DNA of 64,000 nt from Desulfonatronum lacustre DSM 10312 (lineage in GTDB: Bacteria > Desulfobacterota > Desulfovibrionia > Desulfovibrionales > Desulfonatronaceae): assembly GCF_000519265.1 (NCBI RefSeq), contig NZ_KI912608.1, positions 2,823,313 through 2,887,312 of the forward strand, given 5' to 3'. Both the position numbers and the translations under genes were made by a program. The notes beneath the pieces are model-generated. The model saw only the letters and a program-made list of their open reading frames with translations, was not told the origin of the DNA and did not search any database. Shown here piece after piece: positions 25,997 to 29,647 of the stretch (position 1 is its first letter; every line of letters begins with the position of its first letter).

Positions 25997-27247
25997 TCAC
26001 GCTTCCCCCGTTTTTCGCCCTTCCAACCAGGCCCCCATTCTGGCCAGCAACGCGGCAAGTACTGCGCATCCGGCCAGCCACAGCGCCAGAGTCGCGATCC
26101 CAACATGCTTATCCAGAAAGAATCCCAGTAAAATCGGGGATACCGCCGTGGACACGACCATGACCGCCTGGTTCATGGAGCGGATCGCGCCCAGGTGGAG
26201 AATGCCGTAGCGCTCCGCCCAGATCGCGCCGGAAGCCGTGGCGCTCAGCCCCTGGGTGGCCCCGACCATTCCCAGATAGGCATAAACGATCAAGGGGGAG
26301 GGAACCGAGGCCAGCAGCACCAGGCCGGTGACGATCGGGGCCAGGGCCAAGGGCAGGGCTCGGGCCGCGCCCAGGCGGTCCACCAACGGCCCGGCGATGA
26401 ACAACGCACCGAGGTGGCAGGCCGCGTAGACGGAAAACCCGGCGGCCAGCAGTTCCAGGGACCAGCCGAGTTCCTCGGCAAAGGCCATCTGGTGAAAAAA
26501 CAGGGCCGTGACCGTGAACGGGGTCAGCAGCGTAGCGGGTAGGATCAGGTAGTAGCCAGGGTCGCCAAGCACGTCCCGGCGGCTGAACCGGCTGCGATCC
26601 GTACCGGGGTTAGTCCCCGAGTGGTTCTTGGACGCGATTTCATGGGGCGGCGGCGCTCCTCGGGATAAAAGGATCAGCACCGGCAGAATCAGCAGACACA
26701 GCAGCCCCGCGCCCACGACCCAGGGCACCCGCCAGCCGACCCAGAGCAGAAGCAGCGCGGCTCCGGCCGGCAACAACGCTTCAGCCAAGGGAAAACCCAT
26801 GGCGGCCAAGGCCACGGCCCGGCCTCGATGGGCCGTAAAGTACCGGGCCGCCGTGGTCATCCCGATATGCGAAATCATGCCTTGCCCGCCGAAGCGAATG
26901 CAAACGAACCCCGCGGCCAGCACCAGGGCTCCCGGAGCAAATCCGACCAGCAGACACCCTCCGGCCAAAACCCCGATGGCCAAGGCCGTCACCCTGGGCA
27001 AAGTCCATGTGTCCACCAGACCGCCGAACCGAAACAGCAACAGCGCACTGCACAGCGTGGCCCCGCTGTACAGGCTGCCGTAGGCCGTATGGGTCAGGTC
27101 AAAGGCCTGTCGGATTTCAGCGCCAAAAAGCGAGACGAAAAACGTCTGGCCGAACCCGGAAGCCGCCATGGCCCCCAGAGCGAACAGGGCCAGCCGAGGA
27201 TTGACTCGCAAGACGGCTGGAAGGTGGCGGGAGAGAAACTGGAACAT
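25997..27247 (-). CDS. Major facilitator superfamily transporter
   Basis: 416 aa from the ATG at 27247; the longer frame begins with a TTG inside the upstream terminator hairpin and was rejected. It has twelve hydrophobic spans. Resemblance to NarK/oxalate-formate antiporter-type permeases is general only: GAEIRQAFDLTHTAYGSLYSG after helix 1, and a hydrophilic central loop (about 190-215) with a Ser/Asn-rich stretch. The substrate is unknown. It sits alone between serS and the fba terminator. Confidence 0.8.
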   Translation of the reverse strand: MFQFLSRHLPAVLRVNPRLALFALGAMAASGFGQTFFVSLFGAEIRQAFDLTHTAYGSLYSGATLCSALLLFRFGGLVDTWTLPRVTALAIGVLAGGCLLVGFAPGALVLAAGFVCIRFGGQGMISHIGMTTAARYFTAHRGRAVALAAMGFPLAEALLPAGAALLLLWVGWRVPWVVGAGLLCLLILPVLILLSRGAPPPHEIASKNHSGTNPGTDRSRFSRRDVLGDPGYYLILPATLLTPFTVTALFFHQMAFAEELGWSLELLAAGFSVYAACHLGALFIAGPLVDRLGAARALPLALAPIVTGLVLLASVPSPLIVYAYLGMVGATQGLSATASGAIWAERYGILHLGAIRSMNQAVMVVSTAVSPILLGFFLDKHVGIATLALWLAGCAVLAALLARMGAWLEGRKTGEA

Positions 27248-27297
27248 GCTGAAAACCTGTATGCTTGGCCGGACAAAGCGATTTCTCAAAAACGACA

Positions 27298-27329
27298 AAC
27301 GCCGCGCAAACCTTCGTTTGCGCGGCGTT
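27298..27329 (-). terminator. Rho-independent terminator after fba
   Basis: A perfect 13-bp stem (AACGCCGCGCAAA / TTTGCGCGGCGTT) with a six-base loop. Read on the minus strand it is followed by TGTCGTTTTTG. It ends the fba transcript after the small ORF at 27358-27441. Confidence 0.85.
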
Positions 27330-27357
27330 GAAGACTACTCGGATGGAACGTGAAGGT

Positions 27358-27441
27358 CTATCCGCGACGGGAGGTCTGCATCCGGCAGACCTCGTCCCAT
27401 TCCGGGCAGTCGGTGCGAACCGTGTATGTGCTCATACACAT
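27358..27441 (-). CDS. Candidate 27-residue microprotein downstream of fba
   Basis: Short frame MCMSTYTVRTDCPEWDEVCR and seven more residues, ending TAG. A good ribosome site (AAGGAGA, overlapping the fba stop codon) precedes the ATG at 27441; a second ATG two codons later is possible. The frame lies between fba and its terminator, so it must be on the fba transcript. It contains three cysteines, two in a D-C-P-E-W-D-E-V-C stretch. I do not recognise it. Translation is inferred from the ribosome site and placement only. Confidence 0.45.
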   Translation of the reverse strand: MCMSTYTVRTDCPEWDEVCRMQTSRRG

Positions 27442-27447
27442 GTCTCC

Positions 27448-28512
27448 TTACCGAACCAGCGCGGCCAACTCACCCTTGAGATAGCGCTCTTCCATGACTT
27501 CCATGGACATCGGCTTGATCTTGGAGGCGTAGCCTTCGGTGCCGAAAGCCCGGAGGCGGTCCAGACAAATCTGTTTCATGGCCTCCCTGGCCACGCCGAG
27601 GTACTTGCGCGGGTCGAAATCCTTGGGCTTCTGGGCCATGTGCCGCCGGATCGCCCCGGTGGAGGCCAGGCGCAGGTCCGTGTCGATATTCACCTTGCGG
27701 ACCCCGAACTTGATACCCTGCTGGATTTCCTCCACCGGCACGCCGTAGGTCTGGCCCAGATCGCCGCCGTATTCATTGACGATGGCCAGCCAGTCCTGGG
27801 GCACGGAGGAAGAGCCGTGCATGACCAAGTGGGTGTTCGGAATCCGCTCGTGGATTTCCTTGATCCGGCTGATGGCCAGAACTTCTCCGCTGGGCGGGCG
27901 AGTAAACTTGTAGGCTCCATGGCTGGTGCCGATGGCAATGGCCAGGGCGTCCACCCCGGTCTTCTTCACGAAGTCCGCGGCCTGCTCCGGATCCGTGAGC
28001 ATCTGCTCCCGGGACAGCTTGCCTTCCGCGCCCACGCCATCTTCTTTGCCCGCGATTCCGGTCTCCAGGGACCCCAAAACGCCCAGCTCGCCTTCCACGG
28101 ACACGCCGCAGGCATGGGCCATCTCCACAACACGGGCCGTGACCTGAACGTTGTACTCGTAGGTGGAGGGCGTCTTGCCGTCGTCCATCAGTGAGCCGTC
28201 CATCATCACCGAGGAAAAACCGGACTGGATGGACCGGGCGCACACCGCCGGAGAAGCGCCGTGGTCCTGGTGCAGACACAGCGGAATATGCGGCCATTCT
28301 TCAAGGGCCGCCTGGATCAGGTGGCGGATGAACACGGACCCGGCGTATTTCCTCGCCCCGGCGGAGCTTTGCAGGATCACCGGGCTGTTGGTCTCGTTGG
28401 CCGCGTACATAATGGCCTGGACCTGCTCCAGATTGTTCACGTTGAAGGCAGGAACGCCGTAGCCGTGCTCCGCCGCGTGGTCCAACAACTGCCGTAATGT
28501 GATCAATGCCAT
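27448..28512 (-). CDS. fba: Class II fructose-1,6-bisphosphate aldolase
   Basis: 354 aa. It cleaves fructose bisphosphate to DHAP and glyceraldehyde 3-phosphate with a zinc ion. Conserved: [23 protein letters not shown] (zinc histidine and catalytic aspartate), SVEGELG with the glutamate, [18 protein letters not shown] and the phosphate-binding [10 protein letters not shown]. Its length and [10 protein letters not shown] segment fit the longer subtype found in autotrophs and anaerobes. The gene starts after a 334-base intergenic stretch holding a long inverted repeat. Confidence 0.95.
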
Positions 28513-28846
28513 GAGATACCTCCAAAAGGAAAAAAGTTCGGATCAAACCGCCGTGCCGGATTCCGAGCCGATGATGTTTGGTTACGGACCTTGTCGATCC
28601 TACGTCGGTGGGCGGTTAAAGTAAATGCAGGCTGATATTTTCTATCAGGACGGATATGCTCCCGCAGCATATCTGGTCTCCAAATCGAAATCGTGATCGA
28701 AATCGAAATCGATCTTGAACAAGCATGACCCCAAGACATAGTCAAACAGCATTTTTTCGATTTCGATTGCGATTTCGATTTCGATTCGGTTGAAGCTGGC
28801 CGGTCTTGGGCAAAGGCGGGGATACGACTCAGAGCTACGGAGGGGG
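28513..28846. other. Intergenic region upstream of fba
   Basis: No gene seen. It contains two small hairpins (CTGATA/TATCAG at 28632-28648 and GATATGCT/AGCATATC at 28653-28673) and the long hexamer-based inverted repeat at 28682-28787. The fba promoter should lie here but no clear -35/-10 pair was found. Confidence 0.5.
28682..28787. repeat. Long inverted repeat of GAAATC-type hexamers (element B)
   Basis: The left arm (28682-28713) is built of AAATCG-type hexamers with one GTGATCG variant. The right arm (28756-28787) is its near-perfect complement, made of TTTCGA units with one TTGCGA variant. The loop is about 42 bases. The architecture resembles copies A and C, but the hexamers are AT-richer and the ends differ. 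Confidence 0.75.
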
Positions 28847-29647
28847 TCAGTCGCGACGGGCCTGAAGCAGAACCTCGGTCAACTCGACGAAGCCCGCGCC
28901 GCCCCGGGACGGCGTGACCCAGGCCGGTTCGGCTTCCAGTTCTCCGGCGAAATCGAGAACATTGGCCACGCCCACGGCATGGGGGAAAAAGGCGAACATC
29001 GGGGCGTCGTTGGGCGAGTCCCCGGAAAAGACGATCCGGGAAGCCATGGCGTCCAGGTCCATGCCGAAGACTTCGGCCAGAAGCCGTCGGGTCATGGTCA
29101 ACTTGTCCCAATCCCCGAACCAGCCGTTGACGTGGATGGAGCTGACCTTGGCCCGGGCCCCGGCCTGTTCGAACAGGGCCTTGATCCGTCGCACGTCTTC
29201 CGGCGGCAAGGGAGGAACGTCCTCGCAAAAATCAATGGCCAGGTCCGCTTCCCGGTAGGCCTGGTCCGCGGACAACCCGGCCCCGGGGACCTGGGCCAGG
29301 ATCATGTCCCGCAGTTCGGCCAGACGCTTCCGATCCACGGCCCGCTCCGGCTCGCTCTTGAAAAACCGTCGGATCATGGTTCGTTTTTCCCGGTCATACC
29401 GAAAATAAAAGGCCCCGTTTTCCCCCACCACCGCGTCCACGGGCCACATCCTGGCGATCTGATCGCACCAACCCGCGGGACGTCCTGTTATGGGCACGAC
29501 GATCAGCCCGGCGGCCTGGAGCCGCTCAAGGGCAGCATAAGCGGCAGCGCCCAGACGTCCATCGTCGGTCAGGGTATCGTCGATGTCCGTAAGCACGACC
29601 TGGACGGCCCGGGCCGCGTCGCGAGGCATGTGGTTCAGGGGGCGCAT
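28847..29647 (-). CDS. HAD-IIB family phosphatase in the phn transporter operon
   Basis: 266 aa. HAD motifs: I is VLTDIDDTLTDDG (nucleophile aspartate near residue 21), II is ITGRPAGW, and IV is IVFSGDSPNDAPMF. A C2-type cap lies between. Enzymes of this type dephosphorylate sugar phosphates, phosphoglycerates or similar. It starts three bases after the phnE stop, so it is the last gene of the phn operon and may act on a phosphorus compound imported by it; that is inference. The start could be the ATG six codons later. Confidence 0.85.
   Translation of the reverse strand: MRPLNHMPRDAARAVQVVLTDIDDTLTDDGRLGAAAYAALERLQAAGLIVVPITGRPAGWCDQIARMWPVDAVVGENGAFYFRYDREKRTMIRRFFKSEPERAVDRKRLAELRDMILAQVPGAGLSADQAYREADLAIDFCEDVPPLPPEDVRRIKALFEQAGARAKVSSIHVNGWFGDWDKLTMTRRLLAEVFGMDLDAMASRIVFSGDSPNDAPMFAFFPHAVGVANVLDFAGELEAEPAWVTPSRGGAGFVELTEVLLQARRD

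Follow-up and report, generated by a model that had tools for sequence, protein, structure and literature searches.

The window analyzed here is a 64,000-nucleotide stretch of Desulfonatronum lacustre DSM 10312, and the element in question is a small open reading frame (ORF) on its minus strand, directly behind fba, the gene for a class II fructose-bisphosphate aldolase. This ORF probably arose by internal deletion from a 70-residue gene for a six-cysteine, zinc-ribbon-like protein and retains little or no function. The full-length gene, whose product may bind zinc, occupies the slot behind fba in this genus. Slippage between two short, imperfectly matching direct repeats, one around H-T-T-C-P-D-C and the other around R-T-A-C-L-E-W, may have removed 45 codons in frame, taking out the CPxC/CxxC ribbon and fusing the first strand (MxxYTV) to the CxEWDxxC tail. 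The deletion was presumably a single event that predates the split between the two genomes now carrying the short form, and what is left would be a remnant, cotranscribed with fba only through its location. The outcome is a concrete history, that of a conserved small zinc-ribbon-like gene whole in two species and cut at the same place in two. A useful result on the side is the group, whose members occur in several families of the phylum; the window copy is of modest interest.

Relatives at the fba locus

The likely product of the ORF, a peptide of 25 residues (MSTYTVRTDCPEWDEVCRMQTSRRG), was searched against 199 genomes of the order, 80 of which returned something at an E value of 1 or less. 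(G-numbers are the labels of genomes in this sample, G000 being the window's own, and L-numbers label the loci of search matches.) At E < 0.005, just four genomes are left: G000 itself, G015 (E 5.4e-10, 84% identity over 25 residues), G010 (E 5.5e-7, 73% identity over 22 residues), and G030 (E 5.1e-6, 75% identity over 20 residues). The next match below these has an E value of 0.007. All four copies lie directly behind the same fba. G015 carries the same short form, MSAYTVRTACLEWDEVCRMRTSRRG. At the same place, G010 and G030 carry a frame of 70 residues with six cysteines (CPxCG...CxxC...CxEWDxxC), which in G030 reads MKTYTVHTTCPDCGTQQEQTHTAQDMEQRYGSGDNVTATCPQCIKEYENEMRTACLEWDDVCQMQTSRRG. The tail of that pattern is present in both short forms, as CPEWDEVC in the window and CLEWDEVC in G015, while the core cysteines C10, C13, C40, and C43 (CPxCG plus CxxC) are missing from the window ORF. 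With a shared locus and ends that can be aligned, the homology of the window ORF to the full-length gene is real.

What of the rest of the genus? Its eight genomes comprise two with the short form, two with the full-length gene, and four (G004, G020, G025, and G035) with no good match to any form, the best E values being 0.47, 0.52, 0.0086, and 0.14, respectively; the G035 genome is 84% complete. G004 does have the aldolase (91% identical), and nothing homologous to the small gene follows it. Profile searches found no intact full-length copy elsewhere in G000, where the next matches were at E 0.6, or in the G015 genome. The weak match in G025, which lies in a longer frame, and one at a second place in G010 (E 8.5e-4) were read by eye as other CxxC-motif proteins and rejected. 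A preliminary description of this DNA had proposed a small-protein gene here, and rightly so, in that the slot is filled in full or cut form in four of the eight genomes. Conservation after fba, the check that it named, is seen in G015, G010, and G030 and not in the four genomes with no good match.

Extent of the frame and its start

The frame behind fba runs from an ATG at 27441 to a TAG at 27358 on the minus strand (MCMSTYTVRTDCPEWDEVCRMQTSRRG), and the preliminary description took it in full, as 27 residues with three cysteines lying between fba and its terminator. The placement is correct, with a hairpin at 27329 to 27298 beyond the frame. So is the ribosome site said to overlap the fba stop: a Shine-Dalgarno-like AAGGAG can be read from the sequence at 27449 to 27444, overlapping the stop codon TAA. 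The start is probably wrong. AAGGAG lies 8 nucleotides from a second ATG at 27435 and 2 nucleotides, which is very close, from the first, and the second ATG is the position that matches the start of the full-length homologues. Because those homologues begin there and G015 lacks the first ATG, the product is likely to be 25 amino acids with two cysteines, encoded with its stop at 27358 to 27435, as the homologues at the same place suggest. The start at 27441 was dismissed on the missing ATG in G015 and the spacing of just 2 nucleotides; the third cysteine of the longer version lies upstream of 27435.

The deletion joint

Relative to the full-length protein, the short form lacks exactly 45 residues, which is also the spacing from C10 to C55 in the former; the CPxC/CxxC ribbon is gone, and MxxYTV and CxEWDxxC remain. 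Repeat and sequence comparison together place the joint approximately at codons 7 to 13 (RTDCPEW; 27397 to 27417, minus strand), the 45 ribbon codons being absent there. In both full-length genes, the best internal repeat of 21 nucleotides falls at this joint with an offset of 135 nucleotides, in frame. It is imperfect, matching at 15 of 21 positions in G010 and 16 of 21 in G030. The direction of the change is deletion, since the core-plus-tail form is widespread (described below).

Selection and rival explanations

The full-length gene is coding and under purifying selection, because the site counts for G010 and G030 depart from neutrality (9 synonymous and 6 nonsynonymous changes, P = 0.0009). 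The coding constraint expected of a real gene is found in that pair; in the short form, G000 and G015 differ by four synonymous and four nonsynonymous changes, which are few (nonsynonymous divergence [dN], 0.073; synonymous divergence [dS], 0.276; P = 0.089).

Several observations weigh against a remnant produced by deletion. Between the same two genomes, the neighboring gene for a major facilitator superfamily (MFS) transporter has a dN of 0.075 and a dS of 0.269, so that the short frame changes like a gene in use. That frame is still open in both genomes, with start and stop kept, despite an fba dS of 0.25. Set against a synonymous rate of 0.22, the four nonsynonymous changes fall short of the 12.7 expected (P = 0.002). 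The direct repeat is also unremarkable alone, as codon shuffles match it anywhere in 61 of 300 cases for G010 and 15 of 300 for G030; it counts as evidence because its position coincides with the joint, not through the strength of the match. The shortfall of nonsynonymous changes no longer stands out when the local noncoding rate is used (9 of 78, hairpin excluded): 6.7 are then expected, and P is 0.19. All of these short-pair tests are simple binomials with a small number of changes from a single pair of species, and they assume that the deletion is older than the split.

Could the tail be at work on its own? Selection would then act on CxEWDxxC alone, perhaps as part of a metal-binding dimer or for contact with the partner to which the full-length protein binds, an explanation that is held to be a good deal less probable than a remnant. 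Its support lies in the retention of frame, start, and stop and in the likeness of dN and dS to those of the MFS gene, as well as in a ribosome site that is present in the window and a cysteine pair and EWD that are kept in both G000 and G015. The eight changes are too few to carry this case, however, and local noncoding sequence is about equally conserved. The ribosome site appears weaker in G015, and half of the genus genomes gave no good match, short or full-length. Nor is the tail seen alone outside this pair: of the 30 best loci returned by the 25-residue search of the 199 genomes, 10 have the tail and 8 of these have the core, leaving only G000 and G015 core-less. A working miniature, in which the 25-residue peptide is made from the fba transcript after loss of the core and CxEWDxxC acts alone, is rated as unlikely. 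Metal binding of the classic ribbon type was rejected for the window peptide, as the core is missing. The preliminary description had suggested that the small protein could bind metal; this carries over to the full-length form, which has a predicted metal site, and not to the window copy without its CPxC/CxxC core.

The conservation might instead belong to RNA, the stretch being kept as the 3' untranslated region of fba in the context of its terminator. G000 and G015 differ at just 1 of 28 positions between stop and hairpin and at 0 of 32 in the hairpin itself. Upstream of the stop, however, the sequence aligns with the termini of a protein family, and an Rfam scan of 26900 to 28900 gave no match at the gathering threshold, so this account is considered improbable. 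Least credible of all is a chance ORF with no homology. A length of just 25 codons would allow it, but three sister genomes match at this locus with E values of 5.4e-10, 5.5e-7, and 5.1e-6, which makes it very hard to sustain.

The six-cysteine group beyond the genus

How far does the full-length gene extend? With the 70-residue query, matches at E ≤ 0.01 come from 29 of the 199 genomes, in three families of the order. These matches include 26 with a strict core plus tail, one whose tail has D in place of E, and the two short forms of G000 and G015; full-length relatives are thus present in 27 of the 199 genomes, G010 and G030 counted. Twelve members chosen from the matches, the D-for-E member not among them, were aligned, and all share C10, P11, C13, G14, C40, C43, C55, E57, W58, D59, and C62.

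A profile search of 395 phylum genomes found matches in 52, the window's own included, at E ≤ 1e-4. When the best 30 phylum loci outside the order were read, 7 had the CxEWDxxC tail, one had an altered tail, and 22 had a four-cysteine core without the tail. Loci that keep the core and lack the tail are common at this distance, which suggests that the core is the part that does the work. The tail-less members may reflect a broader relation, and one family for all of them is not claimed. Neighboring genes, judged by eye without a family search, vary among the 15 homologue loci inspected, and no partner is therefore proposed. Among the phylum matches there is also a recurrent small group with four cysteines, at L171 to L191 (KKYxVRAECPxCACGDVSFLGPEKLREKFIG...CPxCGxKHKG); one scanned member, from L176, falls below all Pfam and NCBIfam cutoffs.

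The aldolase and its surroundings

The aldolase gene (27448 to 28512, minus strand) encodes 354 amino acids and matches Pfam F_bP_aldolase at E 1.5e-95. Regulation of aldolase by the small protein, as once suggested, is without support in the genome comparison, because none of the 25 order matches outside the genus shows a class II aldolase by tblastn of the flank, which was usually 1.5 kb long and, on one side of L126, 250 bases. The small gene is linked with fba in four genus genomes, short of the consistent linkage that an aldolase regulator would be expected to show.

A scan for fba in named genomes kept 80 loci, 74 to 79% identical and with titles that are mostly Gammaproteobacteria; the best five include a Desulfobacterales bin and a Deltaproteobacteria bin. 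The 70-residue homologue is absent from the 2-kb flanks of all 80 at E 1e-3. Within the genus, G020 and G025 have only a distant version of the aldolase (51% and 49%), and G035 has none at E 1e-30. Gene exchange of the aldolase is possible, judging from these comparisons. G030 has a second aldolase copy (L120, C1:307240-308289), 85% identical, without the small gene. Both this copy and the G004 aldolase (L117) are followed, by eye, by a glyceraldehyde-3-phosphate dehydrogenase-like gene.

On the other side of the ORF, the terminator-like hairpin (27298 to 27329, minus strand) has 14 pairs, with a T-rich tail behind it; one such hairpin was found, against a mean of 0.5 (standard deviation, 0.8) in shuffled sequences. 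The MFS transporter gene comes next (25997 to 27298, minus strand; Pfam MFS_1, E 4.1e-30). The ORF as listed opens with TTG, and an ATG at 27247 is more likely to be the start; the gene's first residues also come next in G015, G010, and G030. Upstream of fba, at 28682 to 28786, are two arrays of 6-bp units, AAATCG (28682 to 28712) and TTTCGA (28755 to 28786), which are mutually complementary and could form a hairpin.

Comparison with known families

The group carries no family name in the libraries tried. Seven members for which cutoffs were available, the G030 protein and six others, fall under every listed Pfam and NCBIfam cutoff; for the remaining scanned members, the best E values are 4.9e-5 in Pfam and 3.3e-5 in NCBIfam. 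The best weak match of the full-length G030 protein is to the YnfU family (PF23499/NF038384), around the first CPxC, where it scores 20.9 of the 27 bits needed in Pfam and 23.4 of 36 in NCBIfam and so does not reach the cutoffs. The window ORF has no match to the YnfU family in the Pfam scan. A further match is to PHROG 6504, a phage protein family of unknown function: in a scan that covered full-length members, 10 of the 12 aligned ones match it (best E 9.6e-6), although PHROGs have no curated cutoffs. Against solved structures, the best match of the profile is Aart (E 1.4e-6), a zinc-finger protein, followed by other zinc fingers and ribbons; none was accepted as a relative.

No six-cysteine small protein of this kind is described in the titles and abstracts of the literature searched. 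One report on C(P)XCG microproteins of Haloferax volcanii found that 9 of the 14 produced bound zinc (PMC11241148). Those proteins are archaeal, the comparison is one of description, and the window ORF has no CxxC motifs. The nearest system is the six-cysteine zinc-ribbon-like group itself, from which the window copy differs by being 45 residues shorter, with CPxCG and CxxC gone, and with which it has the MxxYTV strand and CxEWDxxC tail in common.
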